From the IMG/VR virus record IMGVR_UViG_3300046454_001028, positions 1 to 43,196 of that record: 43,196 nt of DNA, one strand, 5' to 3'. This document shows, piece after piece, positions 6,608-26,539 of the stretch (its first letter is position 1; each line of letters begins with the position of its first letter). This DNA is from a virus. Made by a program: the position numbers and the translations under genes. The notes beneath the pieces are model-generated. The model did no database searches, had not been told where the DNA came from, and worked only from the letters and a program-made list of their open reading frames with translations.

Positions 6608-6771
6608 CCCTGATTGTCTTCCTCCAACGCCTTGACCAGCACCAGCGTGCGATACGTCGGCGGCAGATCGCGCACCGCGAGGCGCACCTGACGCAGCGCC
6701 AGCTCGGCACTGTCGGCGCGTTTACGCGCGGCGCGGCGCTCGCGCTCGGCGAGAAGCTCATCATTCTGCAT
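6577..6771 (-). CDS. Small charged hypothetical protein (minus strand)
   Basis: A 64-aa protein. The frame is open further upstream (to 6933), but ATG 6769-6771 has GGGGA 9-10 nt before it and the protein-like sequence starts there (MQNDELLAERERRAARKRAD). It is a helical, charged, coiled-coil-prone protein. Its 3' end overlaps the convergent HTH gene. The region upstream carries TGGCAA/TTGCCA half-sites that may control it. Function is unknown, and it could be a shadow of an untranslated region. Confidence 0.45.
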   Translation of the reverse strand: MQNDELLAERERRAARKRADSAELALRQVRLAVRDLPPTYRTLVLVKALEEDNQGHRLAEASRV

Positions 6772-6814
6772 GGTGCTGTTCCCCACAGGGGCAACGGCGC
6801 TATGCGCGCCATGA

Positions 6815-6956
6815 TGGCAAAAGTATTGCCACGGTGGATTGTGCTTTGGCAAGCACATCCACCACCACCGGTAGGGTGCGCCAAGCCGCGAAAGATCCTC
6901 AGACCGCAGGATTTTTTCTATCGTGCATTGCAACGGTGATACGTTTTATGTATATT
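6815..6956. promoter_or_regulatory. Divergent control region before the DUF932 gene
   Basis: The plus-strand promoter TTGCAA (6928-6933)-N17-TATATT (6951-6956) is good for the gene at 6994. Around it are ATAC-N7-GTAT and TGCAA...TTGCA inverted repeats. About 100 bp upstream lies a perfect dyad, TGGCAA-N5-TTGCCA (6815-6831), plus another TGGCAA half-site (6847-6852). These may be operators for the promoter and the small minus-strand gene at 6577-6771. The rest of 6772-6993 shows no gene. Confidence 0.5.
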
Positions 6957-6993
6957 GCACAGCACGCAAACACGGCAAACAGGGAGCAGAACC

Positions 6994-7854: not shown

Positions 7855-7862
7855 AATGAATA

Positions 7863-7895
7863 GCCGGTCGAGGGAGATCTGCTCCCTCGACCGGC
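7863..7895 (+). terminator. Strong hairpin after DUF932 gene (terminator-like, no U-tract)
   Basis: A perfect 14-bp stem (7863-7876 / 7882-7895, starting GCCGGTCGAGG) has a 5-nt loop ATCTG. It starts 8 nt after the DUF932 stop. No T-run follows, so it may be an attenuator, an mRNA-stabilising hairpin or a Rho-assisted terminator rather than a classic intrinsic terminator. Confidence 0.55.
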
Positions 7896-7929
7896 GCCGA
7901 CTCCATCAACCCCAATTGGAGGCTAGCCC

Positions 7930-8214
7930 ATGTGGCTTCCCAATTCAATAATTGCCGACGTCGCCCGCGTGGCGCGCGTGCATTACGTCGATCGTGCCGC
8001 CTGCGTGCGCTGGAACCAATACCGCGAGGCCGACGAGCTGCGCCTGCTGTCGGGCTGGTGCTGGACGGCGAAGAATCGTTCGACGTTCCGTCAGGGCTTC
8101 AAGTCCATGACCGTGGCCTACCGCGACGCGTGGTATACCCTGGTCAAGCGCGAGGCGGCGCCGCCGATCGCGCGGTCCAGGCTGCGCGTGGTGCAGCACG
8201 ATCGGGTGGCGTGA
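7930..8214 (+). CDS. Hypothetical phage protein
   Basis: A 94-aa protein starting at ATG 7930 with GGAGG 8 nt upstream. It is the first gene of a seven-gene run (7930-10502) in which each stop overlaps the next start. The sequence has a Trp-rich core (LLSGWCWTAK, later DAWYTLVKRE) and basic residues. No family is recognised. An Arg/Trp-rich helical fold might bind nucleic acid, but this is only composition. Confidence 0.65.
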   Translation: MWLPNSIIADVARVARVHYVDRAACVRWNQYREADELRLLSGWCWTAKNRSTFRQGFKSMTVAYRDAWYTLVKREAAPPIARSRLRVVQHDRVA

Positions 8215-8522
8215 TGGCCGGCGTCAGGTCCACCTCATGGATGCGCTGCGGCCAGGGCGACGTCACGGACGACGACGTGCTCGTGTGGTTATGCACCGGC
8301 GAAGGCCTCACCATACAGATCGCCGATAAAGGTCACCGGGGGCGCCGGCACATTATCACCGTGCCCTATGAGGTGCTCGACGGCATCGCCGAGCAGCGCC
8401 ACGGCATCAAGAAACTGCACCAACATCTGATCATACTCGGGCGAGTGCTGAAAGACATCGGCAGGATCTCCGAAGGTGCCAGCTACACAATCGAACCAGA
8501 AGCAACCGAGGAGGCTGCGTGA
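8214..8522 (+). CDS. Hypothetical phage protein
   Basis: A 102-aa protein. ATG 8214 overlaps the previous stop (TGATG). It begins MAGVRSTSWMRCGQGDVTDD. It has a central beta-like stretch (TIQIADKGHRGRRHIITVPYE) and a helical C-terminus. No domain is recognised and no membrane segment is seen. Coupling on both sides supports translation. Function is unknown. Confidence 0.6.
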   Translation: MAGVRSTSWMRCGQGDVTDDDVLVWLCTGEGLTIQIADKGHRGRRHIITVPYEVLDGIAEQRHGIKKLHQHLIILGRVLKDIGRISEGASYTIEPEATEEAA

Positions 8523-8728
8523 TGACTGACGAGGCGCTATTCGAAATCTGCCACGTCTACGCGGCCACGCTGTGCCTGCAGCGCGCGCTGCTGCACACCA
8601 CCGATGCCCAGTTGTTCGACGCGCTCGACGCGATCAAGCGGATCATGGAGATCGACACCGAGATCACCGACTCCGACGTCGTAATGGCGCGCGCCGGGAT
8701 CGTTCGCCCCGAGGAGTGTGCAAAATGA
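8522..8728 (+). CDS. Small hypothetical helical protein
   Basis: A 68-aa protein. ATG 8522 overlaps the preceding TGA (TGATG); the GTG at 8519 is a less likely start. It is almost entirely predicted helix with Leu/Ile heptads (LQRALLHTTDAQLFDALDAI). No recognised domain. It overlaps the next gene by 4 nt (ATGA). It could be a small protein-protein adaptor, but nothing specific supports this. Confidence 0.6.
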   Translation: MTDEALFEICHVYAATLCLQRALLHTTDAQLFDALDAIKRIMEIDTEITDSDVVMARAGIVRPEECAK

Positions 8729-8946
8729 AAACCAACCCGAAACATCTTGCCGATGCCTACCTGCTGGCGGCGATGGTCGACCACTATCTGGTCCGCGTCA
8801 CACCCGCCACGCGCGACGAGATCGCGACGGCGCAGCAGATCCTGATCACCATGGATAACGCGGTGAACAACGAGAACCGCGCCGTCAGCTGCGCGCTCGA
8901 CATGATCGAGCAGGATCTGCGCGAGCTGGAGAGGAGTGCGTCATGA
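8725..8946 (+). CDS. Small hypothetical helical protein
   Basis: A 73-aa protein starting at ATG 8725 (ATGA overlap with the previous gene) and ending at 8946, where it overlaps the next start. The N-terminus is basic (MKTNPKHLADAYLLAAM), followed by two helices and an acidic amphipathic end (IEQDLRELERSAS). It resembles its upstream neighbour in size and helix content, but I see no clear alignment. Function is unknown. Confidence 0.6.
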   Translation: MKTNPKHLADAYLLAAMVDHYLVRVTPATRDEIATAQQILITMDNAVNNENRAVSCALDMIEQDLRELERSAS

Positions 8947-9242
8947 ACATGCGGGACCGAATCGAAAACCTCGAAACCAAGGTCGATGCGTTCATCCGCC
9001 AACTGGAGAGATTGAACAAATTGCCTGACGCGATCACCGATGTCGCGAAGCAGATCGCGGCGGCGATACTGCCGAAAAACCAGAACGCCACCAACTTCCT
9101 CGCCATGGCGGTCGTCATGCGCGTTGTTGTGGAGGAGATGCCACCAACCCTACGGGTCATCGCCATGGCGGCGTTCTGCAAGCTGGTGCTGGAGATGGAC
9201 ACAAACGACAGCGAGTACGACGACGACGAGGACGCGGCATGA
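8943..9242 (+). CDS. Hypothetical protein, paralogue A of a tandem pair
   Basis: A 99-aa protein starting at ATG 8943. The N-terminal 35 residues form a short coiled coil (RIENLETKVDAFIRQLERL). The C-terminal half, with a LAMAVVMRVVVEEMPPTLRV segment and then AFCKLVLEMD, aligns with the end of the next gene's product (ATFCRLVLELD). The C-terminus is a poly-acidic tail (DDDEDAA). The two genes therefore look like a diverged tandem duplication. Function is unknown. Confidence 0.65.
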   Translation: MNMRDRIENLETKVDAFIRQLERLNKLPDAITDVAKQIAAAILPKNQNATNFLAMAVVMRVVVEEMPPTLRVIAMAAFCKLVLEMDTNDSEYDDDEDAA

Positions 9243-9502
9243 ACGACGAAACAGAAGCAGTATTTTCCGAGCAGGTTGACGGGATGCTGACGATCCTGAG
9301 CGACAGCTTAAGCGACGCGCATGCCGCAGAGGCCAGCCAGCTCACCGAGCAGATCACCGATCTGATGCACGAACGATACAACATCGTCGTCATGATGGCG
9401 CTCGCCTCGGCGTTGAGTGCGTTTCTCTCCGACGTGCCGGTCACGCAGCGCGGCGTCACCCTGGCGACGTTCTGCCGCCTCGTATTGGAGCTGGACATAT
9501 GA
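9239..9502 (+). CDS. Hypothetical protein, paralogue B of a tandem pair
   Basis: An 87-aa protein starting at ATG 9239 (ATGA overlap). Its last 40 residues (VVMMALASALSAFLSDVPV, then TLATFCRLVLELD) match the same region of the gene before it. It shares the pattern V-M-x-A, D/E-(V/M)-P, A-x-F-C-(K/R)-L-V-L-E-(L/M)-D but lacks the acidic tail. Its N-terminus is acidic and helical. Function is unknown. Confidence 0.65.
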   Translation: MNDETEAVFSEQVDGMLTILSDSLSDAHAAEASQLTEQITDLMHERYNIVVMMALASALSAFLSDVPVTQRGVTLATFCRLVLELDI

Positions 9503-10041
9503 CCGAACAAACCCCGCCACCGGGATCGTTCGACTGGATCGTCGGCGGCACCGCGCTGCACGCGGTCGACGTGCCGTTGGCGGAGGGATCGCAGGTCCGC
9601 ACGCTGCGCGTCGAGATCACCGCGCGCGCCCGGGTGGCGCCCAACCGGCCCTGGGGTTACATCCTGTTGGGCTGGGGCCTGATGGTGCTGGCATTGCTGG
9701 GGGTGATCGCCATCAACCCCGCCCACAGCCAACCGATCGACCTGTCCGGCCCGCCGCTGCCGAGGGAACCGGCCAGGGAACCGCCCAGGGAGGTGCCACG
9801 GGGCGTCTGGGTGCCGCCGGTGGATGGCGGCAGGGGGTGGGGCGAACCACGCCCTGCGCCGCGTCCCATGCCCGCCTGGGGGCCGCCGCCGCCCACCTGG
9901 GGCTGGCGGCCAGCGCCGGCCTGGGGCCAGCAGGAACCCGGTCGCACCACCAGCTACAGCTACTACACCCGCCCCGACGGCACGATGGGCCGCTGCGCGG
10001 TGTCGCAGTGGCGCAGCGAGCCGACCATGCGGTGCGAGTGA
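9499..10041 (+). CDS. Membrane-anchored Pro/Trp-rich protein
   Basis: A 180-aa protein starting at ATG 9499 (overlap with previous TGA). After about 50 soluble residues there is one transmembrane helix, YILLGWGLMVLALLGVIAI, near 55-73. A long Pro/Gly/Trp-rich region follows (PAWGPPPPTWGWRPAPAWG), then a short C-terminal domain with two Cys (RCAVSQWRSEPTMRCE). The anchor with a disordered Pro-rich domain suggests an envelope protein. The basic residues preceding the helix suggest the C-terminal part may lie in the periplasm. An accessory role such as exclusion or lysis accessory is possible but unproven. Confidence 0.65.
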   Translation: MTEQTPPPGSFDWIVGGTALHAVDVPLAEGSQVRTLRVEITARARVAPNRPWGYILLGWGLMVLALLGVIAINPAHSQPIDLSGPPLPREPAREPPREVPRGVWVPPVDGGRGWGEPRPAPRPMPAWGPPPPTWGWRPAPAWGQQEPGRTTSYSYYTRPDGTMGRCAVSQWRSEPTMRCE

Positions 10042-10502
10042 TGTCCCCAACACCCGCCGACATCGCCCGCTGCGGCCACATCATCGTCTTCCTGCGCGAA
10101 CAGCTGGAACGGCGCGGCTGGACGGTGCGCGATCTCTCGCTGGCGCTGGCGCTGGCGCCGGAAAGCACCACCGCTTACGCGTGGCTGCGCGGCACCAGCG
10201 CTCCCGGCCCCACCCTGCGGAACAAGCTGAGCGCGCTGTTCAACGTATCGCCCGAGATGTTCCTGCCAAAGGCGCGCGACGAACGGGTGCCGCCCGCCGA
10301 GGCCCCGGTAAAGATCAGCCGGACGCTGCCGGCAGCATCGGCGCGCCACGAGGTGCTGAGCTTCACCGTCGGCTCGGACGGCAATGCCAGGATCAGGCTG
10401 GACGCGACGATGCCGCTGGCGAGCGCCACGCCGTTGCTGCGCATGCTGCTCGACGCGGGTCTGGCGTTCAGTCCGGTGGAGCCGGAGGCGGTATCCGCAT
10501 GA
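10041..10502 (+). CDS. XRE-family HTH regulator
   Basis: A 153-aa protein starting at ATG 10041 (TGATG overlap). Residues 14-72 read as a helix-turn-helix of the XRE/Cro type (LREQLERRGWTVRDLSLALA, TTAYAWLRGTSAPGPTLRNK, LSALFNVSPEMFLP). This is the common arrangement of a five-helix repressor domain. The C-terminal 80 residues are unassigned and may form an oligomerisation domain (SFTVGSDGNARIRLDATMPL). It is the last gene of the coupled run and converges on the minus-strand gene at 10468, overlapping it by 35 nt. It is a candidate protein for one of the dyads found in this window. Confidence 0.75.
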   Translation: MSPTPADIARCGHIIVFLREQLERRGWTVRDLSLALALAPESTTAYAWLRGTSAPGPTLRNKLSALFNVSPEMFLPKARDERVPPAEAPVKISRTLPAASARHEVLSFTVGSDGNARIRLDATMPLASATPLLRMLLDAGLAFSPVEPEAVSA

Positions 10503-10701
10503 CGCGCGCGTCGAGGATGTCGAGGTAGTGCAGCATGGCGCTGAGCTGCTGGGTCAGCAGGGTGGCGTCTTCGCCCGGCAGGTTGGCCAGCTTACCGGGT
10601 TCCTGAACGAACGTCTGTAGCGCGATGACGCGCTCGCGCAGCCCGTCGCGCTCGGCCAGCAGGCGGTTCTGCCAGTCTTCAGTGTAGGATATGTCGCTCA
10701 T
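10468..10701 (-). CDS. crAss001_48-related small phage protein
   Basis: A 77-aa protein with the typical pattern of a widespread small phage family. An N-terminal helix (WQNRLLAERDGLRERVIALQ) is followed by TFVQEPGKLANLPGEDATLL and QQLSAMLHYLDILDARV. The relatives, often annotated crAss001_48-related protein, have no settled function. It is the last gene of the long replication transcript. GAGG lies before ATG 10701, and the start overlaps the preceding gene by 23 nt. No terminator is evident after it. Confidence 0.65.
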   Translation of the reverse strand: MSDISYTEDWQNRLLAERDGLRERVIALQTFVQEPGKLANLPGEDATLLTQQLSAMLHYLDILDARVMRIPPPAPPD

Positions 10702-10882
10702 CGTCGGCCTCCTCGACGCCTGCCTTCAGGTCTTCAATGGCATGCAGCAGCGACGCGGACAGCCGCAGCGCGAACATTGCCAGACAAGCGGGACAGCCGG
10801 CGACGTGCTTGTCGAGTGCGCCGAGCCGCACGGTGATCGCGTCGTCTTCCTCCACCACCGTCGCGCGCAGCAGCAGCCTCAT
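10679..10882 (-). CDS. Small hypothetical protein with CxxC
   Basis: A 67-aa protein. ATG 10882 overlaps the upstream stop (ATGA), so I prefer it over the open frame to 10930. The HVAGCPACLAMFALRLSASL segment has a CxxC embedded in a helix, possibly redox or metal related. The C-terminus is acidic. No family is recognised. Confidence 0.55.
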   Translation of the reverse strand: MRLLLRATVVEEDDAITVRLGALDKHVAGCPACLAMFALRLSASLLHAIEDLKAGVEEADDERHILH

Positions 10883-11133
10883 CGGTCGATCCCCCTGGCC
10901 AGCACGAGCATCCCCTCGTCGGTGAGACACAGTATCGGATCGCCCACCTCAAGGTCGTATTGGGCGCGTTTCACGTCAGCCTCGGTCGCGGTGCGCCATG
11001 TCGCCAGACCGCTGCGCTCGATGATCTTCTCCAGGTTGTAGGCTTCCAGCTCGCTGGACTCGATGAACGCCTCCCAGACCTGCGCGAACACGAACGCCAG
11101 CGGATCGCGCGGCGGCAGCGGTCGCCTCGCCAA
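10879..11133 (-). CDS. Hypothetical phage protein
   Basis: An 84-aa protein. TTG 11133 lies 2 nt after the previous stop, with GAGGCGGGA upstream. The longer frame to 11211 would overlap the neighbouring Zn protein by 75 nt. The core is VWEAFIESSELEAYNLEKII, then ATWRTATEADVKRAQYDLEV and a beta-like end (DPILCLTDEGMLVLARG). No domain is recognised. Function is unknown. Confidence 0.55.
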   Translation of the reverse strand: MARRPLPPRDPLAFVFAQVWEAFIESSELEAYNLEKIIERSGLATWRTATEADVKRAQYDLEVGDPILCLTDEGMLVLARGIDR

Positions 11134-11135
11134 GC

Positions 11136-11378
11136 TCAGTATCCCGCCTCGGTGGCCGCCTGCTCGCTCTCGATCTCGGCGCGCCAGAACAGGATCGCGC
11201 AACGCTGGCACAGCAGCGCGGTTCTGCCCGGATGATGGAAATTGCCCGGCAGCACCAGCGCCGATTCAAACGGCGCCAGCGGCGTATGGCAATGCGAGCA
11301 ATCGTAGACGTCTTCCGGCGAATAGCGCACGCGAGACTGATCGTATTTCAGCGGCTGGACGTTGAGGTTTTTTTTCAC
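11136..11378 (-). CDS. Small Zn-ribbon-like protein
   Basis: An 80-aa protein. GTG 11378 overlaps the upstream stop (GTGA). Two Cys knuckles, DCSHCHTPL and LLCQRCAILF about 35 residues apart, plus nearby His suggest a Zn ribbon. Such small phage Zn proteins often bind DNA or host transcription proteins, but no target can be named. It lies inside the coupled minus-strand run. Confidence 0.6.
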   Translation of the reverse strand: MKKNLNVQPLKYDQSRVRYSPEDVYDCSHCHTPLAPFESALVLPGNFHHPGRTALLCQRCAILFWRAEIESEQAATEAGY

Positions 11379-11944
11379 GGCGTCAGTCTCCTGCCTCGCG
11401 CGATGTCATCTTTTATTTCGCTTTTGTAGAACTCCACCAGCCGATCGAGGATCACCATCAGCTTCCGCTTTTCGGTTTCCGCGTGCAATGGCGGCATGAC
11501 GCGGCGCGTCCACTCGCGCAGGCTGGCGTTCTTCAGCAGGATGATCTCGATCATCACGAGCTGCGGCATGGAGAACAGCATCATCACCCGGCGCACCGCG
11601 CGCACGGCCCGCATCTGCTCGATCGCCGATTGGCCGAGGCCCCAGCGCGGCAGCGGGAACTGTGCCACGTAGATCAGCGGACGTTCGGCGGAGTAGCCGA
11701 GCACGGCGAGGTCGACCTGCTCGCGCAGCTTGTCCACCGCCATGATGTGGCGCTCGGTGATGCCGGAGGCCGGGTGGCCGCTCATGCGGCGCAAGGGGCA
11801 GTACGTTCGCCAGCCGTGGATCTTGCGCGGCGCCTTCGATGAATTGGGCCGGATATCGTCAGGGTCCGTCCAGTCGGCGCGCATGGCGTGGCGCGGCGGC
11901 GGGCCTTCCGAGTCGAGCGGCGGCAGGGTCTTGGCGCGCGCCAT
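11375..11944 (-). CDS. Hypothetical phage protein
   Basis: A 189-aa protein. ATG 11944 overlaps the stop of the small membrane-protein gene (TGATG), so the open frame to 12010 is not used. The N-terminal 50 residues are Pro/Arg-rich. The rest is helical with an LPRWGLGQSAIEQMRAVRAV stretch and a long amphipathic C-terminal helix (LVEFYKSEIKDDIARGRRL). No recognised family. Function is unknown. Confidence 0.6.
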   Translation of the reverse strand: MARAKTLPPLDSEGPPPRHAMRADWTDPDDIRPNSSKAPRKIHGWRTYCPLRRMSGHPASGITERHIMAVDKLREQVDLAVLGYSAERPLIYVAQFPLPRWGLGQSAIEQMRAVRAVRRVMMLFSMPQLVMIEIILLKNASLREWTRRVMPPLHAETEKRKLMVILDRLVEFYKSEIKDDIARGRRLTP

Positions 11945-12048
11945 CAACGCCGCAGCTTGTCGAACAGCCAGCAGACCAGCAGGCCGGCGGCAGCACCGCC
12001 GGTGATCCACAGCGAAATGGCTACAGTCACGTCGTCAGCTGGCGGCAT
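11944..12048 (-). CDS. 34-aa single-pass membrane protein
   Basis: A tiny frame from ATG 12048: MPPADD, then one hydrophobic helix VAISLWITGGAAAGLLVCWL, then FDKLRR. Arg/Lys after the helix predicts a cytoplasmic C-terminus. AGGAC lies 8 nt upstream, and the stop overlaps the next start (TGATG), which argues for real translation. It could act on the membrane or as a holin-like or inhibitor peptide, but size and topology are the only evidence. Confidence 0.6.
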   Translation of the reverse strand: MPPADDVTVAISLWITGGAAAGLLVCWLFDKLRR

Positions 12049-12056
12049 GGTTTGTC

Positions 12057-12485
12057 CTAATGCAGTGTGCTGAACGTGCGCGGATCGAAATCGAGCGGCT
12101 GCACCAGATTGATCGCGAGATCGCCGCTGCCGATGTTTTCGTCCCAGATCGTGCAGCAGCCCAGGCCACCGACGAAGCCCATTTCGCGCGCCAGCATCCA
12201 CACCGCCTCCGGTGTCGGCACGCGACCCCGGCGACGCGAGGAGACGCTGATGTGACGGCACGTGCCCACCGGGTGGCCGGTCTCGACGCTGAACGTCACG
12301 TAGAACATCGACGGGATCTTGGTGCTGTAGAGCTTCATGCGTTCCAGATGCGCCGCGTGGCCATCCTGGGTCTTGATCAGCTCGCGCACCTTCAGCACAT
12401 CGATCGGGTTGAGGGTGGCGAAGTCACGCAGCGCGTGCAGGATGATCTTCTGCTCCGCACCGATGATCAGCGCCGAGGCCGCCAT
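12057..12485 (-). CDS. Hypothetical phage protein
   Basis: A 142-aa protein. ATG 12485 overlaps the upstream TGA (TGATG). It begins with a hydrophobic helix (MAASALIIGAEQKIILHALR). A mixed alpha/beta segment follows with MFYVTFSVETGHPVGTCRHI, then LGCCTIWDENIGSGDLAINL. Four Cys are present but in no standard Zn spacing. No domain is recognised. Confidence 0.6.
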   Translation of the reverse strand: MAASALIIGAEQKIILHALRDFATLNPIDVLKVRELIKTQDGHAAHLERMKLYSTKIPSMFYVTFSVETGHPVGTCRHISVSSRRRGRVPTPEAVWMLAREMGFVGGLGCCTIWDENIGSGDLAINLVQPLDFDPRTFSTLH

Positions 12486-13132
12486 CACGGCGCGCCGATC
12501 TTGGCGAGCGCCATCATGCGGCGATAGCCGTCGATCGTGTAGGCGCGATCCTCATCCGACGTCTTCACAGTGCGGTTGCGATGCACCCCTAGGATGCGCT
12601 GCTTTTCGTCGCGCGACACCGGCTTGCCGTCGGCGTCCAGGCACAGATGATGCACATGCACCGGGGCGCCGTCGGCGTCGAAGGCGAATGTGGCCATGGC
12701 TTTGGTTTGCTCGTCCCAGCCGAAGCCCTTGTGCGGCGGGTCCAGAAAATTCGCCTTCAGCCCGCCCGGTATCAGCTTGATGGTGCCGTAAACCAGATAC
12801 AGCTTGCCGCCCTCCTCGTTCACGCTCTGCACGCCATCCCGCGCGATGTGGTCCACCGCGATCGTCATCAGGCCGCCGGTCTTGGTCACATCGCGCATCT
12901 GGCTGAGCGACTGCGCCTTGGTGGTGATCAGCGCCAGGGCGGTGAAATACTCATCGCCGTTCTCGGCGTGATCGTTGTCATCGACCCTGAACAGCCAGAA
13001 GCGCGAGCCGTCCTCGATCTGGTAGCGGCGCGGTGGCGAGCCGAGGAACATGATCGTCCCGCCGCGCAGATCGCCGCCATCGACGCGGATCTCGGCGGCC
13101 AGATCGATGATCTTCATGCCGGTCGGCGCCAT
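12485..13132 (-). CDS. Hypothetical phage protein
   Basis: A 215-aa protein. ATG 13132 abuts the upstream stop with GGGGG upstream. The sequence is mixed, with beta-rich N-terminal strands (GSRFWLFRVDDNDHAENGDE) and a C-terminal helix pair. A DADGAPVHVHHLCLDADGKP stretch looks like a beta hairpin with His clusters. There are no catalytic motifs I can name. Position between helicase and small genes suggests a DNA-metabolism accessory role, by context only. Confidence 0.6.
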   Translation of the reverse strand: MAPTGMKIIDLAAEIRVDGGDLRGGTIMFLGSPPRRYQIEDGSRFWLFRVDDNDHAENGDEYFTALALITTKAQSLSQMRDVTKTGGLMTIAVDHIARDGVQSVNEEGGKLYLVYGTIKLIPGGLKANFLDPPHKGFGWDEQTKAMATFAFDADGAPVHVHHLCLDADGKPVSRDEKQRILGVHRNRTVKTSDEDRAYTIDGYRRMMALAKIGAP

Positions 13133-13519
13133 TCATTCCCCCTTCTGCCAGCGCGCGAACGCGTCCATATCGCCCGGGTCAGCCGCCGGCCCATCGCCGT
13201 TCTGTATGACGGCGAGGAGTCGATGCACGTCTTCCGCTTCGATGATGCGCTGGCCGTCGTCCAGCACGTGGCAGCGCAGCGTCACGCCGAACACGGTGAA
13301 CGTGCCGGCCCAGATCGATTTGGGGATGCTCGCTTCCACGCCCGACTCCTCGGTCAGATGCGCCAGGATCTTCCGGCGCGCCAGCCGGCATTCTTCCTCC
13401 ACCGCGCGCCACCGCGACACCCGCATGCCGCCAATCGATACCGCGCTGCCGCCCAGGGCAAGGCGACAAACACGCTCCAGCTTGTCGGCCAGCTCTATCA
13501 GCAGCTCATAGTCGGTCAT
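13133..13519 (-). CDS. Hypothetical phage protein
   Basis: A 128-aa protein starting at ATG 13519 (ATGA overlap with the previous gene). The N-terminal half is helical (LLIELADKLERVCRLALGGS). The C-terminal half contains a TFTVFGVTLRCHVLDDGQRI beta section. No recognised family. It sits in the coupled helicase operon. Confidence 0.6.
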   Translation of the reverse strand: MTDYELLIELADKLERVCRLALGGSAVSIGGMRVSRWRAVEEECRLARRKILAHLTEESGVEASIPKSIWAGTFTVFGVTLRCHVLDDGQRIIEAEDVHRLLAVIQNGDGPAADPGDMDAFARWQKGE

Positions 13520-13689
13520 CGCGCCGGGGCTGGCGGCGGCATCGGCACGAAGCAGATCGCCGTGCTCAGGATCTTGCCGTCGTGGCTCGTGATCAGGTCG
13601 CGGTAGATCCAGCCGCCCGGCACGCGGATGCGCTGCAGCTCAGTCGTGGGCGTCTCATGCACGAATTGCCACGTCTCGCTGCTGCTCAT
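13516..13689 (-). CDS. Small hypothetical protein
   Basis: A 57-aa protein. ATG 13689 overlaps the helicase stop (ATGA); the longer frame to 13743 would lie inside the helicase. The sequence is beta-like, with WQFVHETPTTELQRIRVPGG and a WIYRDLITSHDGKIL turn, then a Pro-rich tail. Coupling to the helicase suggests a partner or modulator, by context only. Confidence 0.55.
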   Translation of the reverse strand: MSSSETWQFVHETPTTELQRIRVPGGWIYRDLITSHDGKILSTAICFVPMPPPAPAR

Positions 13690-15203
13690 GCCCCTGCCCC
13701 CGCAAACTGCTCCTGCTGCTCCTTGAGCCGCCAGTAGACCCATCCAGGCTTGTAACCGTGCGCCTTGGCGTAGGCCGTCAGCTCAGCCTCGCTGCGAGGC
13801 CGCGCCAGCAACTTACGATAGGGCAGCCGCGTGATGTAGTCGAAGCGGTCGGGGAGGTATTCCGCCATCTCGGCGTTGTCCGCCTGCAGGATGCGCCGGC
13901 GTGGCCGAGGAGCCTCGCAGGCCGAGCAGAACTCGGTGCGGCCCGAGTTCAGCGTGCGGCAGTCGCGATCGGCGCACAGCCAGGGCTTGGGCGCGCCGCA
14001 GACGGCGCAGTCCTGCCGGCCCGGCCCATTGAGCACGTTGCAGTCGAAGCACGCCCACGGCTCGGGGGGTTTTTTCGTGGTGTCCTTGTCGACACCGTCG
14101 AGCGACCACGCCACCGGCTCGGTGGGCAGGCCGTGGGTCAGGCAGTTCCTGGCGTGGTCGAGCACCACCAGCGCCGAGCCGTCGGCCTTGGGCCGCATGC
14201 CGCGCCCGATCTGCTGGAAACACATGGTCAGGCTCTGGGTTGGCCGCAGCAAAATCACGCAACCAACTGATGGCACGTCGAGGCCCTCGGAGATGATCTC
14301 GCACGAGGTCACCACCTGAACTTCGCCCGTGGCGAGGCCCTGGAGCGCCGCATCGCGCTCGGGCTTGGGCATATCGCCGTAGACCGCCTGCGCCGCGTAG
14401 CCTGCTGCAGCGAACGCGGCGGCCACGTTTTTCGCGTGCGCCACGGTGACGCAGAACACGATCGCCGTGGTGCCGGCGGGCAGCCGTTTGAACTCCTCGA
14501 CCGCGTCGCCGGTCACGCCCTCGGCGCGCTCGGCCAGCTCATCCTCGGCGTAGTCGCCGGCCACCTTGCGCACGCCGCGCACGTCGATCGCCGCCGCCGG
14601 CAGGTAAACCCGCAGCGGCGCGAGGTAGCCGCCATCCACCAGCGCCTGGGTCGCTGGACCGGTCACCAGGGCGTCGAACGGCCCGCCGGCATGCGTGCCC
14701 AGCCCCTTGCCGTCGAGCCGCTGTGGCGTGGCTGTGACGCCCAGGATTTTGGCCTTGGGCTGGCTGGCCAGCAGCGCCGCCCAGGTCTTGCTCACCGCGT
14801 GGTGCGCCTCGTCCGCCACGATCAGGCCGAACTGCGGCAGCTTGTCGAGACGCCGCACCACGGTCTGGATGCTGGCGACCTGCACCATGGCATCGTGGTC
14901 GCGATCGAGGCCGGCGGCGATGATGCCGTGTGGCACGCCGGTCCAGGTCAGGTTGGCCGAGGCCTGCGCCACCAGCTCACGCCGGTGCGCCAGGACGAGC
15001 GTGCGGATGTTCTTGGCTGCCGCGCCCTTCACGATGGCGCTGAATACGACGGTTTTGCCGCCGCCGGTGGCGAGCTGATAGAGCGGGGCCTTGGCACCCG
15101 AGCGGTAGGCGTCGCGGAGCTTGGCGAGATCCTCGCGCTGATAGTCGCGCAGCACGAGCGGCGGGGATGTTTCACGGGAAACGTCGGGGGTGGTGGCGTC
15201 CAT
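13686..15203 (-). CDS. SF2 DEAH-box helicase with C-terminal Zn ribbons
   Basis: A 505-aa protein. Walker A ATGGGKT is at 45-51, motif Ia LVLAHRRELVAQA near 69, DEAHH at 131-135, TATPQR at 157-162 and motif VI QQIGRGMRP at 330-338. Together these form a complete SF2 translocase core. After residue 384 come Cys pairs (CFDC, CAVC, C410, C415, CSAC), about two Zn ribbons. It would use ATP to unwind or remodel DNA or RNA during replication or recombination, in the style of RecG/Rad25-like phage helicases. The start ATG 15203 is less certain; a TGTCAA (-35 TTGACA on minus) lies at 15258-15263. The DVSRET codons contain a parS-like sequence. Confidence 0.9.
   Translation of the reverse strand: MDATTPDVSRETSPPLVLRDYQREDLAKLRDAYRSGAKAPLYQLATGGGKTVVFSAIVKGAAAKNIRTLVLAHRRELVAQASANLTWTGVPHGIIAAGLDRDHDAMVQVASIQTVVRRLDKLPQFGLIVADEAHHAVSKTWAALLASQPKAKILGVTATPQRLDGKGLGTHAGGPFDALVTGPATQALVDGGYLAPLRVYLPAAAIDVRGVRKVAGDYAEDELAERAEGVTGDAVEEFKRLPAGTTAIVFCVTVAHAKNVAAAFAAAGYAAQAVYGDMPKPERDAALQGLATGEVQVVTSCEIISEGLDVPSVGCVILLRPTQSLTMCFQQIGRGMRPKADGSALVVLDHARNCLTHGLPTEPVAWSLDGVDKDTTKKPPEPWACFDCNVLNGPGRQDCAVCGAPKPWLCADRDCRTLNSGRTEFCSACEAPRPRRRILQADNAEMAEYLPDRFDYITRLPYRKLLARPRSEAELTAYAKAHGYKPGWVYWRLKEQQEQFAGAGA
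15168..15183. promoter_or_regulatory. parS-like 16-mer inside helicase gene
   Basis: TGTTTCACGGGAAACG matches the chromosomal ParB-binding consensus TGTTTCACGTGAAACA at 14 of 16 positions. Both mismatches fall in the right half. It overlaps codons 7-12 of the helicase. A second partial half-site, GTTTCAC followed by AAAC, occurs at 15251-15264. No parA/parB gene is in the window. Confidence 0.35.
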
Positions 15204-15274
15204 GTCCTTGTCGATCTGGTTTCTAGCTCACCCTCCATAGCACACAGAGTGTTTCACTGTCAAACGGCAAAACC

Positions 15275-15313
15275 AGACATTCTGGCCTGACACTTTGGCC
15301 TGACATTCTGTCC
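15275..15313. repeat. Three tandem 13-bp repeats upstream of helicase
   Basis: Consecutive units AGACATTCTGGCC, TGACACTTTGGCC and TGACATTCTGTCC lie end to end without gaps. The first contains a small dyad CCAGA-cat-TCTGG (15273-15285). They lie about 70 bp upstream of the helicase start, on the 5' side of a TTGACA box for the minus strand. They look like iterons or a cooperative regulator site. Confidence 0.6.
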
Positions 15314-15322
15314 GGTCGTTCG

Positions 15323-15368
15323 CGATTCGTGCTGGTCCGCGAATCGTTATGCCGGCAAGTGCCGGCAT
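15323..15368. other. Two inverted repeats in the 15204-15376 gap
   Basis: CGATTCG (15323-15329) pairs with CGAATCG (15340-15346). ATGCCGGC (15349-15356) pairs with GCCGGCAT (15361-15368) around loop AAGT. No T-run follows on either strand, so these are regulatory or structural hairpins rather than proven terminators. No gene is seen in 15204-15376. Confidence 0.5.
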
Positions 15369-15376
15369 GCCGTGCT

Positions 15377-15577
15377 TCACCACCCGCTCTTGGTCATCGT
15401 CCGCGCGCCCATCGCCAGCGCACCAGCCATCATGCTCACGGCGACCAGCACCGCCAGCCACGGATGCTCAGGCATCAGCCAGCCGATCAGCAACCCGCTG
15501 CCGGCGGTGAACACCACGAACACCACCACCTTGCCCAGGCCGAGCGCCAGGGCGCGGTAAGCCTGCCAGAACGTCAC
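15377..15577 (-). CDS. Small two-helix membrane protein
   Basis: A 66-aa protein. GTG 15577 overlaps the upstream stop (GTGA); the open frame to 15658 would overlap its neighbour by 85 nt. Two hydrophobic segments are visible: LGKVVVFVVFTAGSGLLIGW near 15-34 and WLAVLVAVSMMAGALAMGA near 40-58. An N-terminal amphipathic helix precedes them. This size and topology is holin-like, but no lysis gene is adjacent, so a general membrane role is all I can say. Confidence 0.6.
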   Translation of the reverse strand: MTFWQAYRALALGLGKVVVFVVFTAGSGLLIGWLMPEHPWLAVLVAVSMMAGALAMGARTMTKSGW

Positions 15578-15792
15578 ACAAGCGTTCCGGATCGCACGCC
15601 GTGGATCTTCAGCGGTTGCACGCCATGAGGCGGTGGATCGCAAACGAGACAGCGCCAACCTCTACCACCAAGCCAGAGAAATACTGTCTGGCATTGACAT
15701 AATGGCCAAAGGTGACTCGCCACGATCCGATGCGGCAGCGCACGCAATCGCTCCACGCGTTCCATAAATGTAGAATCGTCGTCAGGGTCCAC
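15574..15792 (-). CDS. Small Cys-rich protein
   Basis: A 72-aa protein. GTG 15792 has AGGGAAA about 8 nt upstream; an internal ATG nine codons later is an alternative. The WPLCQCQTVFLWLGGRGWRC segment is followed by LVCDPPPHG. The four Cys (CQC, and C-x-x-C in RCLVC) suggest a Zn knuckle. Gap 15793-15802 separates it from the next gene. Function is unknown. Confidence 0.5.
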   Translation of the reverse strand: MDPDDDSTFMERVERLRALPHRIVASHLWPLCQCQTVFLWLGGRGWRCLVCDPPPHGVQPLKIHGVRSGTLV

Positions 15793-15802
15793 GGTTGTTT
15801 CC

Positions 15803-15994
15803 CTATCGCCTCGGGTTCTTCTTGGTCCTCGGCATCGGCACATAGGGCGCCGGCACCCACGTGGCAGCCACCAGGGCGCGGTGGGTGGCGCACGCCCACA
15901 TCGGCTTCTGTGGTGGCAGGCCGAAGCCAAAAGGGCTGTGGGGCCGTGCGCAGATGTGGCAGCGCTGGGGATCAGGCGATGAGGGCGCGGGCAT
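15803..15994 (-). CDS. Small Cys/His protein
   Basis: A 63-aa protein. ATG 15994 lies inside the ExoX-like gene's 3' end (23-nt overlap). CHICARPHSPFG near the N-terminus and MWACATH further on give a plausible Cys2-Cys/His metal site. The C-terminus is Pro/Arg/Lys-rich. The upstream part of the gene is short, so the exact start is not firm. Function is unknown. Confidence 0.5.
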   Translation of the reverse strand: MPAPSSPDPQRCHICARPHSPFGFGLPPQKPMWACATHRALVAATWVPAPYVPMPRTKKNPRR

Positions 15995-16796
15995 TGGCAA
16001 TCTCAGCCTCGATCTCGCGCACGGTGATCAGCTTGCGGCCATTGGCCTTGAACATGGCGCGGACGGTTTCCAACGGCACCACGGCGGCAAACCGATCGAT
16101 CACCAACACCCAGGCGCGGAGACGCTCCATCTGACGCATGACGGTCGGAAAATCATCGCCGAGCGACGGCTTGATCTCGATCTTCCAGTCACATCCCTGA
16201 AGCACGCGGAGGTAATGTCGGTCTGTGACGTCCAACTCTGGCAAAAAGAACCGCCAGTGTTCCGTGGCGGAGTCATAGGGAGCGGGCGCGGTGAAACGGA
16301 GCATCAGCAACACATCGACGCCACGCTGTTCAAATAGCACCCTGGCGTTGAAATGGGCCTGGATCGGGGTCGTCTCCAAAATCTGCCGACGCCGTTCCTC
16401 GCGCTCAGCATCGATCTTCGGAAGCGCCTCCCGGCTGGCGTAATTAGACTTCCGATCAAGCTCCATCATCGCCGGATCGTGCATTCGCTCGATCGCAACG
16501 TTGACCGCCGCCTCCCGGTAGCGATCCAGCTTGGTCCCTGTGCTCAGCACAAATGCCGCCTGAAACAACGGGTCGAGGAACCGTGCCTGGATCAGATTGT
16601 GCTCGGGCGTGTCATCGCTCGCGGCGCCCCTGGTCAGCAGAGCCGCGTGTAGCTCGGCGAACCGCTCGGCGAACCACGCTTGGCCCAGCATCCATTCGGC
16701 ATACTGCGGATCGCTCGACAGCACGTCCGCGACGGTGCGGCCTTTGTGCTTGCCGAACGGCAGGATCATCGCGCTTGGCTCGGGCTTAGCAACCAT
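15972..16796 (-). CDS. ExoX C-terminal-domain-like protein
   Basis: A 274-aa protein from ATG 16796 with GGAG 8 nt upstream. Residues 10-53 match the small C-terminal domain found in exodeoxyribonuclease X and many phage proteins (PFGKHKGRTVADV, DPQYAEWMLGQAWFAERF). No DEDD nuclease motif precedes it, so this is the isolated domain fused to about 220 unassigned residues, not an exonuclease. The remainder is helical and ends in a charged segment. Its promoter region would be the 126-bp palindrome at 16816-16941. By context it is a replication or repair accessory. Confidence 0.7.
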   Translation of the reverse strand: MVAKPEPSAMILPFGKHKGRTVADVLSSDPQYAEWMLGQAWFAERFAELHAALLTRGAASDDTPEHNLIQARFLDPLFQAAFVLSTGTKLDRYREAAVNVAIERMHDPAMMELDRKSNYASREALPKIDAEREERRRQILETTPIQAHFNARVLFEQRGVDVLLMLRFTAPAPYDSATEHWRFFLPELDVTDRHYLRVLQGCDWKIEIKPSLGDDFPTVMRQMERLRAWVLVIDRFAAVVPLETVRAMFKANGRKLITVREIEAEIANARALIA

Positions 16797-16815
16797 GGGT
16801 TGTTACTCCGGTTGG

Positions 16816-16941
16816 GTGAGGATGGTGAGGATAGTGACCATGCTGCGGCGATACTACCAGAACTGTCAGTATTTCGATATCGTTTCAGTGACAGTTTACC
16901 CCCTTACGCCGCAGCATGGTCACCATGGTCTCCATGGTCAC
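16816..16941. repeat. 126-bp concentric palindrome, candidate replication origin or resolution site
   Basis: Four symmetric layers share one axis at 16878.5. The centre is CGATATCG (16875-16882). The next layer is AACTGTCA / TGACAGTT (16861-16868, 16889-16896). The next is a perfect 17-bp arm (16834-16850 and 16907-16923, GTGACCATGCTGCGGCG and its complement). Outside lie 9-bp units: GTGAGGATG, GTGAGGATA, GTGACCATG (16816-16842) and CATGGTCAC, CATGGTCTC, CATGGTCAC (16915-16941). It lies between the primase stop and the ExoX-like start and is AT-richer than its surroundings. The function is not known from sequence. Confidence 0.75.
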
Positions 16942-16944
16942 TGA

Positions 16945-16960
16945 TTTGATTTTTATCAAA
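16945..16960. other. AT-rich hairpin next to the palindrome
   Basis: TTTGAT (16945-16950) pairs with ATCAAA (16955-16960) around TTTT, just left of the primase stop. On the minus strand it would be a short hairpin ending the primase message, and it could also serve as an AT-rich unwinding element for an origin. It is too weak to call a terminator. Confidence 0.4.
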
Positions 16961-16961
16961 C

Positions 16962-19409
16962 TTACTCAACTTTCTCGACATACCAACGGATTGCACCATG
17001 GGTGTTGCCGTCATCCTTTAAGAACCGCTTCTTCGCCGCGACCCTGCCGACGTACTTTCTGAGCCAATATTGCATGCGAGCGGTGTCAACTTCCGCGCCG
17101 CCACGGGCGGGAAATTGCTCCTTCATGATGGGGTAGAAGCCATCGATCTTGGAATCCTTGACCGCGTCAGCGATGGTCTTGGGGGTTCCCTGGAACTCCG
17201 CATACCAACCCTCAAGCATCGCAGCTAAACGTATGGTTGCAGGATCATCCTTCGCCGTGGTCTCCATCGTCTCTGCCGGATCGGTCTCGCCGAGCCACAC
17301 CAGCGGCTCGCGCACGAAGTGCGACCACGCGCCGTAAGAGCCGAGCGAGAAGATCCCGAGCTTGGTCTGGCTAACGTGGTAGGCCCGCGCGATGATCAGG
17401 ACGTCGGCGATGTAGCGACCACGGTCGCGGCGCGCGGTGATGATCGGGTCACCATCGAACGGGCGCCGCTCGGGATGCTCCTCGCCGGCGTCGAGGTCGC
17501 AGCGCATGGTGCGGCGGCCCTGTTCATCCACGATCGCGAGGTTGTTGCCGGTCATGTAGATGACCACGGCGTTCTCGATCTCCACGATCTCCAGCACGCC
17601 GAACAGGCGGATACTGATCAGTGGCCGCTCGGTCGCCATGTTCAGTGTGGGCGTGTCGATGTCGCGGCTGACATTGTCGATCGAGAACCCGGGCACACCG
17701 GCGATCAGCATGGCGTTGATGCCCTTCTCCGTCTCCTCGTCCTTCTTGCTGGTGCCCATGGCCGGGCATGGCCGACCGATTGCGACGGTACTGGCCAGAT
17801 CCACGAGATGCGACTTGCCGGTGCCGGGCGCCCTGGCGGATACGGCAAGCAACGGCGACACCGGCATGGCGCAGCGCAAGACCTGGGTCTTGAGCATGGT
17901 CAGCGCGACGCTGCGGGAGGCGCGATTGACGAACGGGTAGGAGTCCAGCAGACCATTGAGCCGCCCCAAGGATTCCCGCGCGTCGTGTTCGGTCGGCGCC
18001 TCGGGGATCTCTGGCATCACCAGATCACTGGGGAACATCAGGTAGTAGCGTGACACAGGGTCATAGCCCGGTGTCATCAATAGCGAACCGTCGGGCCGGA
18101 GTGTGGGCGATGTCAGCACACCACGCACATGCGGAAACGGCCAGTCGCTGCGGTTGTTCAACACGATCTGCACCAGCTTGTCGGGCGGATCACAGACCAC
18201 AAAAGCCCGACGCCTGCCGTCCCACTTCTGCCAGACCGCCACCTCGGACAGCATCTTCATCAGCGCTGGCGCGGTGATCGGCACCAGCGCCGCGCTATGC
18301 GTCACACCACCGTCGGCAGTGCGATATTCCTGTTCGGTCGGCTGCACGAGCATGCCGCGCTGATAGATCGGCGCGCCAGCCGCTAGCAGTGCCTCCTGGG
18401 CCTGCCGCACCATGCGCGGCAACTCGCCGGCCACGCAGACGATGACGCGCTGGCCGTCCGGCAGCGGATCGCCCCTGCCGTCGCCCTCCGGCGGTGGCGG
18501 CTCAGGCGGCTCACCACCCTCCTCCACCCCACCAGGGGGGTCGTCGGGTGGTACCTCACCGAGCGGCGGCGCCGCCGGCGGCACGTAGGGCGGCGCCTCG
18601 CGGGCGTGGTATTCCAGCCCCTCGACGGTGCCGCCGGCGTCCAGCCAGTCGGTGACGTCGCCCTTGGGCGGCAGGTTGGGTAGCAACAGCAGCTTGATCG
18701 AGGCGGCCACCGGGTAGAGCGAACGCGCCACAGTTGCGGCGTGTGCCTCACCCACTGCATCATTGTCGGCCAATACGACGACGTGCTTGCGCAAAAAATA
18801 GCGCTGCATTTCATCGCGCCACTTGCCAGAGCCGCCGATATTGCAGGTCGCGATTAATCCCAGCTTGGTGAGATTGTCGCAGTCCTTTTCGCCCTCGCAG
18901 ATCCAGATGGTCTGCTCGCCCGAGGCCAGCACGCCGGGCAGCCGGTAGACCAACAGGTCATGGCCGGGCAGATCTCTGACGTTCCACTTCCACTTCTGAT
19001 CGCCGCGCGCGGTGTAGCCATCGGGCCGGCGCTGGAAAAACCTGGGGTTGCCGTCGATCGTGCGGATGACGTCGAGGATCAGCGCGCCGTCGGCGTCGTG
19101 GTAGTGATAGACAACGCCGATGTTCTCCCACGGCTTCTGCCGCCCGGCGTGGCCGTTGGCGCCGTTGGCTTTGGGCCGCGCCGGCAAGGGACCGATCGCC
19201 ATCTGGTGGAGTTCGCGATAGCCACCACCTTCATTGGCCTCATTGTCGAACCACACCAATTCGTTAATTTTGATACTCTTCGACTGATGCGCGCCGAAGC
19301 GCACTTCGTTCTTGTTATGCGACCAGTCGGTCGGTAGTCCCCACAGCTTGATGGCCAGCTCTAAGATGCTCGGCCATGACGGATCAGGCCGGAATGGCTC
19401 GCCGGCCAT
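16962..19409 (-). CDS. TOPRIM primase - SF3-like ATPase fusion
   Basis: An 815-aa protein from ATG 19409 with GGAG 6 nt upstream. The N-terminal 75 residues match the primase-associated domain seen in mobile elements (LWGLPTDW, VRFGAHQSKS). TOPRIM follows: ICEGEKDCDN near 170, VLADNDAVGEAH near 214-225, and GDVTDWLDAGG near 250. A Pro/Gly-rich linker spans 274-318. The C-terminal ATPase has ARAPGTGKSHLVD near 527 (Walker A) and VPGFSIDNV near 573 (Walker B). It would prime and unwind at the phage origin. No Zn finger is seen. This is the main replication protein of the window. Confidence 0.85.
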   Translation of the reverse strand: MAGEPFRPDPSWPSILELAIKLWGLPTDWSHNKNEVRFGAHQSKSIKINELVWFDNEANEGGGYRELHQMAIGPLPARPKANGANGHAGRQKPWENIGVVYHYHDADGALILDVIRTIDGNPRFFQRRPDGYTARGDQKWKWNVRDLPGHDLLVYRLPGVLASGEQTIWICEGEKDCDNLTKLGLIATCNIGGSGKWRDEMQRYFLRKHVVVLADNDAVGEAHAATVARSLYPVAASIKLLLLPNLPPKGDVTDWLDAGGTVEGLEYHAREAPPYVPPAAPPLGEVPPDDPPGGVEEGGEPPEPPPPEGDGRGDPLPDGQRVIVCVAGELPRMVRQAQEALLAAGAPIYQRGMLVQPTEQEYRTADGGVTHSAALVPITAPALMKMLSEVAVWQKWDGRRRAFVVCDPPDKLVQIVLNNRSDWPFPHVRGVLTSPTLRPDGSLLMTPGYDPVSRYYLMFPSDLVMPEIPEAPTEHDARESLGRLNGLLDSYPFVNRASRSVALTMLKTQVLRCAMPVSPLLAVSARAPGTGKSHLVDLASTVAIGRPCPAMGTSKKDEETEKGINAMLIAGVPGFSIDNVSRDIDTPTLNMATERPLISIRLFGVLEIVEIENAVVIYMTGNNLAIVDEQGRRTMRCDLDAGEEHPERRPFDGDPIITARRDRGRYIADVLIIARAYHVSQTKLGIFSLGSYGAWSHFVREPLVWLGETDPAETMETTAKDDPATIRLAAMLEGWYAEFQGTPKTIADAVKDSKIDGFYPIMKEQFPARGGAEVDTARMQYWLRKYVGRVAAKKRFLKDDGNTHGAIRWYVEKVE

Positions 19410-19515
19410 CACACGCGCTCCGGTCGACAGCCTCCGCTACAACCCCGGTCGGCGCCGGTGAACGTGATTGAAATTAGCGATGAAACGGGCACCATTGATA
19501 GTTCGCTCCCACTTG

Positions 19516-25086: not shown

Positions 25087-25190
25087 GGTCGCGGCGCATC
25101 AATGGGTTAGCCCTGTCGGAACTCTTTACACATGCGTTGCGAGATACTGTGCTTCACTATGGCGGTTACCTTGCAAGGGAACCCACCACG

Positions 25191-25844
25191 ATGCGCAACC
25201 TCCTCCTCTCCACCATCGCCGCTGCCGGACTGGCCCTGGCCACGCCGGCAAGTGCCGCGCTGATCTCCTCGGCGTCCGCACCCGGCCAGCTCGCCGCCGG
25301 CGCCTGCTCGGCCAACGACGGCGGCACCGGCTCGCTGAACACCAATTGCTCCGGCGGGATCTACTCGTCCATCGCCATCTCGGCGGCGGCCCCACCGCTG
25401 CTGAACGCGCCAGACCTGAGCGCCACCACGCTGACGGTGAAGACCACCGGCCTGGGCGCGGGTAGCTCGACGCTGGACATCAACATCGACAGCAGCGGCT
25501 TCGCGTTCGCCGGTGGGCCGGTGACCGCGATCTTCACGGTGAACAACCTGATCGGCGGCGGCGCGGGACCCTTCGTGCTGATCGCCTCGTCACCGGCGGG
25601 CACGCTGTCGCATACGTTCACCGCGTCGGGCAGCGCGCAGGACGGCCCGACGGTGCTCGGGGCGTTCACCTCCGATCACGCCGAGTTCCAACTGACGTTC
25701 ACGGGGAACACGGTGCAGTCGCTCGATGCCACGATCGAGATCGTCGGTGCATCCGAGCCGGTGAGCATGGCGCTGCTGGGCGTCGGCCTGCTCGGCCTCG
25801 GCATGGTGCGCGGCAAGCGTCGCGATCCCGGTGCGGTCGCATGA
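25191..25844 (+). CDS. Secreted protein with PEP-CTERM-like anchor (SEP variant)
   Basis: A 217-aa protein. ATG 25191 has AAGGGAA about 9 nt upstream; the frame to 25137 lacks a site. N-terminal Sec signal (MRNLLLSTIAAAGLALATPA, cleavage near SAA). The mature part is Gly/Ser/Thr-rich beta-like with two Cys (GACSANDGG and NTNCSGG). The C-terminus (about 188-217) has SEPVSMALLGVGLLGLGMVR then GKRR: a SEP/PEP motif, a transmembrane helix and basic end, the exosortase sorting pattern. It is expected to be exported and processed by a host exosortase. PEP-CTERM proteins are rarely described in phages. Confidence 0.75.
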   Translation: MRNLLLSTIAAAGLALATPASAALISSASAPGQLAAGACSANDGGTGSLNTNCSGGIYSSIAISAAAPPLLNAPDLSATTLTVKTTGLGAGSSTLDINIDSSGFAFAGGPVTAIFTVNNLIGGGAGPFVLIASSPAGTLSHTFTASGSAQDGPTVLGAFTSDHAEFQLTFTGNTVQSLDATIEIVGASEPVSMALLGVGLLGLGMVRGKRRDPGAVA

Positions 25845-26539
25845 TGCGGCTGGCGGCAGCCGCTGGGATGGTGGGAGCGCTTGCTCTCACCACGCCCGCC
25901 ATGGCGGTGCCGGTGACGGACACGTTCTGCGGGCCAAGCTCCGGCCAGGGATGCGAGGTCGGTGGCGAGAAGATGGTGTTCCTCCAGGCCAAGACAAACA
26001 CCATGCATGGCCTGGGGAATATCGGTTCGCAGAACGGGTTGCCGCTGATGCACATCGATAGCGATGGCGGCAAGCTATCGTTGTTCATCGACCTGAAGAA
26101 CGGGTTCGCGACGATCAAACCGACGAACGGGATTTCGTTTAACGGTTTGGACATCACGGTGCCCGGCTTCGGTTTTACCGAGCTGGTGTTTGACGTGCAG
26201 CTCACGCCGGAGTCGAAGAAAGCCAAGACCGAGTCCTTCACCATCGAAGGTTTCAGTGGAAACCATATCAGTGACGGCCTCGGCACCGAGACCGACAAAC
26301 CGGACGCGGACACCGAGTTCTCGATCACCGCGCATGGCGGGGTGTTCGATGAGGTCAACATCGCCAGCCTCACCGGTTTCGATGAAATCAAACACATCGA
26401 AATCGGCGGGGTCTGCGCCATCCAGTCGAATGGTTCCTGCACGCCGGTGATCATCGAGACGCCGGAGCCGCTCACCCTGGCGCTGCTCGGCACCGGGCTG
26501 TTCGGCCTCGGGCTGGTGCGTCGGATACGTCGCGACTAA
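25841..26539 (+). CDS. Secreted PEP-CTERM protein
   Basis: A 232-aa protein. ATG 25841 overlaps the previous stop (ATGA). Signal peptide MMRLAAAAGMVGALALTTPA with AMA cleavage. Mature part with Cys pair (FCGPSSGQGC), beta-rich, and a VCAIQSNGSC patch near the end. The C-terminal TPEPLTLALLGTGLFGLGLV plus RRIRRD is a canonical PEP motif, helix and Arg tail. Tandem with the related gene, so they may be a pair of surface proteins made by the infected or lysogenic cell. It is the last gene before a terminator. Confidence 0.8.
   Translation: MMRLAAAAGMVGALALTTPAMAVPVTDTFCGPSSGQGCEVGGEKMVFLQAKTNTMHGLGNIGSQNGLPLMHIDSDGGKLSLFIDLKNGFATIKPTNGISFNGLDITVPGFGFTELVFDVQLTPESKKAKTESFTIEGFSGNHISDGLGTETDKPDADTEFSITAHGGVFDEVNIASLTGFDEIKHIEIGGVCAIQSNGSCTPVIIETPEPLTLALLGTGLFGLGLVRRIRRD

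Follow-up and report, generated by a model that had tools for sequence, protein, structure and literature searches.

Mirrored triplets of 9-bp repeats directly behind a primase-helicase gene form a candidate replication origin on a phage contig

We analysed a stretch of 43,196 nt (hereafter, the window) from IMG/VR virus record IMGVR_UViG_3300046454_001028, which is classed as a virus and encodes its own terminase large subunit. A two-fold symmetric element without assigned strand (positions 16816..16941), marked out by symmetry, folding and an array detector and treated here as a candidate replication origin, fills the gap between two minus-strand genes. On one side, it starts 20 nt past the stop codon of a gene (16962..19412, minus strand) for a replication protein with a TOPRIM-type primase region, a predicted SF3/D5-type AAA+ helicase and a predicted C-terminal winged helix, which we propose as the initiator. 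On the other side, 20 bp away, lies the start (16796) of a minus-strand gene with an ExoX-like C-terminal domain (15972..16796), within which we also saw a perfect 12-bp tandem duplication, GCTCGGCGAACC (16652-16675). An AT-rich perfect hairpin, TTTGAT-TTTT-ATCAAA, occupies 16945-16960, past the primase stop codon but ahead of the first repeat array, confirming the position next to a primase-ATPase gene and such a hairpin that was described in an earlier note on this DNA; by eye, no such hairpin was seen in the close relatives L191 and L192.

The element is built in layers around one axis at 16878.5 (16878/16879). Its outermost layer consists of three tandem 9-mers per side that point inwards: a rep-proximal array on the minus strand, GTGACCATG GAGACCATG GTGACCATG (16915..16941), and a mirrored distal array on the plus strand, GTGAGGATG, GTGAGGATA, GTGACCATG (16816..16842), which on the minus strand, in the sense of the primase gene, reads CATGGTCAC TATCCTCAC CATCCTCAC (16842-16816). 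Adjacent to the innermost 9-mers, a second layer, CTGCGGCG, extends a perfect 17-bp arm inwards (16907..16914, minus strand; mirrored copy at 16843..16850, plus strand, with minus-strand letters CGCCGCAG). The third layer, AACTGTCA, lies 18 nt inside the array on either side (16889..16896, minus strand, and 16861..16868, plus strand, the latter with minus-strand letters TGACAGTT), and neither it nor its complement occurs anywhere else in the window. At the axis itself stands CGATATCG (16875..16882, no strand), which is probably incidental because it is absent from the centre of the close relatives L191-L193. A direct comparison and a window-wide axis scan thus recovered all four layers and the single shared axis that had been described. 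The layers are not fully independent, as had been thought, because the 17-bp arm takes in the 9-mer nearest the axis, and the "126-bp palindrome" is two-fold symmetric without being one continuous palindrome, because its symmetry is interrupted between the layers.

The symmetry is exceptional within the window. Direct comparison across the axis gave 43 of 63 symmetric positions, and the axis was the best of the whole window at radii of 40, 63, 70 and 80, the runner-up at radius 63 reaching 36. The inverted repeat extends over 35 nt at 83% identity, including the perfect 17-bp inner arm, and most positions next to its 8-bp centre lack symmetry. A detector that looks for three tandem 9-mers facing mirrored copies gave the element the highest score of the window (272, compared with 204-220 in whole-window shuffles). 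The core between the arrays has a G+C content of 50%, against 65% overall.

A second contig, IMGVR_UViG_3300047312_000343, is identical to the window over the shared stretch examined (window 6260-17525, with terminase-region sequence further left by inspection) and, judged by length, reaches ~9.6 kb past its left end; the window is hence an incomplete genome. This contig probably represents the same virus population, and its identical element is therefore no independent confirmation. We rejected the idea that the whole palindrome is a mobile or repeated element, since the 17-bp arms occur in IMG/VR, besides the window, only in this second contig. An integrase-linked attachment site was likewise rejected, no tyrosine integrase match being found in the window or in five related records. 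Elsewhere on the window, two consecutive genes (25137-25844 and 25841-26539) encode secreted-looking proteins, an unusual cargo for a phage; the second matches a PEP-CTERM sorting motif, and the first has a PEP-CTERM-like tail by eye. Two very long ORFs on the minus strand (1167 and 1900 aa; 28549-37754) with many degenerate internal repeats probably encode a tail fibre or adhesin.

The replication protein has 816 residues. Its TOPRIM-type primase region matches phrog_239 and phrog_6088, which are phage DNA primase/helicase families, and PRK07078, and its C-terminal half matches phrog_29234, to which no function is assigned. We modelled the C-terminal 502 residues from a 60-sequence alignment, with a mean pLDDT of 94.5. 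The modelled C-terminus runs helix-helix-helix-strand-strand, the order of a winged helix, and this predicted domain (16965..17177, minus strand) is our proposed reader of the 9-mers. Foldseek matched the C-terminal model to the D5/E5 poxvirus helicases, the African swine fever virus PrimPol and NrS-1, and also to PDB entry 7pds ("PriRep1 with dsDNA"). The model accordingly predicts a D5-type SF3 helicase for the C-terminal half, with a winged helix at its end. Because a PDB sequence search with the family profile gave no credible match, this assignment rests on the fold and on Walker-type motifs; Pfam helicase families gave no match at cut-off, and no Rep_3-family initiator domain was detected in the gene.

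Scans of genome and virus collections for homologues of this gene yielded 138 loci, in which the element proved to have many counterparts. A strong inverted repeat was found within 250 nt past the primase-helicase stop codon in 65 of 89 non-redundant loci, its arms beginning a median of 8 nt past the stop, whereas the same score was reached by 0 of 267 dinucleotide shuffles, by 1.4% of other windows and by 2.9% of windows past other long ORFs. In most cases, the repeat consists of two mirrored arrays, each with three tandem 9-mers, that enclose a core poorer in G+C (0.46, against 0.63 for the loci). Identity as a function of lag past the stop peaked at 9 (0.52) and 18 (0.43) over a level of about 0.26, and mirrored three-9-mer arrays passed the 99% null in 108 of 129 loci; about a quarter of the non-redundant loci had no strong array at the expected place. 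Array-bearing loci lie on virus contigs, in prophage regions and on plasmids, natural small plasmids among them, and are mostly alphaproteobacterial.

The letters of the arrays differ widely. Remote homologues on plasmids and prophages show similar anatomy right after the stop codon with quite different sequence, the 9-mer of the window being GTGACCATG and those of distant relatives AGTGGGTTT or AGGGGTTTG. An Azospirillum array, for example, reads AGTGGGTTT three times, AACTGTCA, TGACAtt and AAACCCACT three times, and Methylobacterium tardum plasmid pMt-1 carries AGGGGTTTC AGGGCTTTT AGGGGTTTG, then AACTGTCA, TGACAGTT and the mirrored array. On the 12.6-kb plasmid pMNOD06 of Methylobacterium nodulans, an array of GGGGGG-type 9-mers lies directly 3' of a Prim-Pol/helicase gene, and no other scanned protein of this plasmid has a Pfam replication-family match. 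A similar architecture was seen behind another helicase clade: on a 9.7-kb Roseomonas sp. plasmid, a TOPRIM primase with a helicase part that matches different families (phrog_1156 and phrog_1829) is followed by several arrays of GTGTCCAGG-type 9-mers, which occur in both orientations (L130:6122-6401).

The earlier note had named the absence of the layers from close relatives with a conserved neighbourhood as evidence against its reading; what we found is that L191, L192 and L193 keep the replication gene, a DEAD-type helicase and gene 11375, and keep the mirrored arrays with other 9-mers (GGGGGGGAT, AAGGGGGAT and TTGGGGACT). A further relative, L189, ends in the middle of the element, after a G-rich 9-mer array followed by AACTGTCA. 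The proposed search for the 9-mers and the palindrome in related phages thus returned a similar mirrored architecture after the homologous gene in many of them, with different letters.

The inner motif recurs at a fixed place. Over 50 non-redundant arrays, AACTGTCA was present in the core on the gene side at 7 or more of 8 positions in 24 arrays (1.35 in shuffled cores) and on both sides at 6 or more of 8 in 30 arrays (5 in shuffled cores). It mostly lies 17-20 nt from the array, at equal distances on the two sides, as with the 18 and 18 nt of the window. The inner pair alone was discarded as a search key, as it is unspecific (at least 119 stretches). Among the papers listed by a literature search for the motif, with thin coverage of subscription journals, only unrelated texts turned up.

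We compared the 9-mers with the domain that may read them. Loci with more similar 9-mers also share more identity in the winged helix, even when the AAA region is corrected for (partial r = 0.23, permutation p = 0.005; r = 0.14, p = 0.03 in a coarser version), and a control helix gave r = 0.03 (p = 0.37); the specificity of this covariation is modest, as some AAA stretches give partial correlations near the winged-helix value. The window protein has Gln at residue 467 (numbered in the 502-aa C-terminal part), in the predicted recognition helix, where nearly all relatives have Gly, and the 9-mer of the window phage is likewise the most divergent in the clade. A link between residue 467 and non-GGG iterons is suggestive only, the association across sequences not being significant (p = 0.11).

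The anatomy of the element, its recurrence behind homologous genes with differing 9-mers, the low G+C of its core and the predicted protein fold are observed, and by comparison they point to the element as very probably the phage's origin of DNA replication, firing bidirectionally. We infer that DNA binding, melting and the start of replication take place here. In the mechanism that we propose, the C-terminal winged helix of the adjoining primase-helicase would bind the three 9-mers on each side, and the mirror arrangement would set two helicase assemblies face to face across the lower-GC core. Once the core melts, SF3 rings would load on the single strands and travel in opposite directions, with the TOPRIM domain priming both forks. 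In many families, AACTGTCA sits at a constant 18-20 nt on the inner side of each array and may provide a second contact, more slowly evolving, for either the body of the helicase or a factor of the host. Cumulative GC skew showed no turn at the element, being lowest near 25-26 kb of the window, and GC skew of pMNOD06 gave no support for an origin. Among the roles suggested in the earlier note, a replication origin for a protein that binds 9-mers is the one strongly supported, by the mirrored 9-mers that many relatives carry just behind their homologous gene.

The most serious alternative is that pairing rather than binding is what matters, such that a hairpin or cruciform would be recognised by its structure, as an origin or by the primase, in the way proposed for pRN1. 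The strand folds well (DNA folding z = -6.5), the pRN1 stem-loop is needed for replication (PMC4234260), and mirror-partner 9-mers are slightly more alike than non-partners (7.34/9 versus 6.77/9; 35 loci versus 2). This likeness could, however, stem from pairing selection, from position-specific contacts or from template switching that homogenises the arms of a palindrome. The 9-bp periodicity and the similarity even of non-partners (6.8/9) are explained by a binding site and not by pairing, and variant copies remain uncompensated on the opposite arm in L126 and in the window. Because of the tandem periodicity and the uncompensated variants, we favour protein-binding repeats as the apparent main function of the 9-mers and regard the pairing explanation as unlikely. 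Less probable again is a super-operator, at which a dimeric repressor or the replication protein would sit on the arrays and control transcription of the downstream gene. Repeats with inverted symmetry are typical of operators, and the element lies just upstream of the next gene's start. This role, also put forward earlier, is weakened because the arrays keep their place 3' of the replication gene, while conservation does not extend to the gene downstream: tblastn found no match to the ExoX-like gene in L191, L192 and L193, which keep the array. Moreover, no sigma-70-like promoter was found at the element, and the annotated downstream gene of the Roseomonas plasmid is convergent. Autoregulation could nevertheless coexist with origin function.

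The strong RNA fold directly after a gene (z = -6.8) would also suit a transcription terminator or a processed RNA stem-loop. We consider this very improbable: no T-run terminator was called within the element, nor was the G+C-rich hairpin with T run of an intrinsic terminator found, no Rfam family reached its gathering score (a miRNA match fell below threshold), and a 9-bp tandem periodicity would be unusual for a terminator. A large palindrome near a replication gene likewise recalls the telomere-resolution site of a linear N15-type prophage, a role that the earlier note had listed and that now appears extremely improbable. The protelomerase family (PF16684), which might have lain in the missing part of the genome, went unmatched in both the window and the second contig, which extends it by ~9.6 kb, the genome still being incomplete. 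Unlike telRL, the element has no continuous palindrome around its centre, where the flanks of the central 8 bp are mostly asymmetric; two contigs pass through it unbroken, and the centres differ among relatives.

A replication origin of this build resembles several known systems without coinciding with any. SaPI/PICI origins (pri-rep-ori) lie directly 3' of rep and have two iteron sets around an AT-rich region, an arrangement that their authors called unique to PICIs (PMC6092414; summarised also in PMC7581432). The element shares with them its position directly 3' of an initiator helicase gene (20 nt here, family median 8 nt), the two iteron sets flanking a lower-GC core (50% against 65% in the window, 46% against 63% in the family), and a proposed initiator with helicase and primase functions whose predicted C-terminal fold matches 7pds, the model supporting an SF3/D5 helicase with a C-terminal winged helix as putative origin-binding domain. 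It differs in residing on a terminase-encoding phage contig and on small plasmids rather than a satellite island, in its mirrored 9-mer triplets with a fixed-offset AACTGTCA pair, in its TOPRIM-type primase, and in a protein for which neither PDB nor, at cut-off, the Pfam helicase families gave a sequence-level match. Replication of pRN1 requires a 100-bp stem-loop that lies right after a primase-SF3-winged-helix gene and for which the authors report no iterons (PMC4234260). The pRN1-family/BIP-1-type likeness covers this ~100-bp stem-loop directly 3' of the gene and a conserved architecture with poorly conserved sequence; the pRN1 primase, however, is archaeo-eukaryotic (Prim-Pol), whereas here the stem consists of tandem 9-mers and the primase is of TOPRIM type, although the pMNOD06 replication protein does have Prim-Pol. 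A Bordetella phage region was rejected as a direct relative, having a 16-bp stem after the gene and no 9-mer arrays, as was its replication protein, for which profile comparison was insignificant.

A further parallel is SCCmec Cch2, a D5-family helicase whose C-terminal domain binds the three iterons of the putative SCCmec origin just downstream of the operon (PMC7581432), but its direct repeats are one-sided and its polymerase/primase protein is separate. Phage P4 alpha, which binds repeats at its origin, is a single protein with a TOPRIM primase, a helicase and a C-terminal winged helix (PMC4234260). The window protein also joins a TOPRIM primase, a predicted helicase and a predicted C-terminal winged helix. 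Origin function in P4 depends on a second element at a distance (crr), whereas here a single compact element follows the gene. Classical Rep_3-type iteron plasmid origins are unlike it, since the gene has no Rep_3 domain and the arrays are mirrored rather than one-directional. The candidate origin family of the window combines traits of PICI, SCCmec Cch2 and pRN1 in a stem made of iterons, and it is not a PICI or pRN1 member, because the host element, the TOPRIM primase and the fixed-offset inner motif differ.

These comparisons suggest a two-tier origin module, a proposal that we think has about an even chance of being right. Its outer tier would be the fast-changing 9-mer triplets, read by the winged helix of the initiator, and its inner tier the widely shared, fixed-offset AACTGTCA pair, which a host factor or some conserved portion of the helicase would read, with the module staying behind the SF3 helicase while the primase modules (TOPRIM, PriCT-2, Prim-Pol) swap. 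If this is true, the 9-mers would let the initiator of each phage or plasmid recognise its own origin and would make these elements mutually incompatible, and the origins of SaPI/PICI, pRN1-type elements and phages would form one architectural class tied to SF3/D5 helicases. The ~50 matched initiator-origin pairs would offer a natural series for how a winged helix specifies its 9-mer, and the mirrored 9-mer array could serve as a simple marker for origins in uncultured phages.
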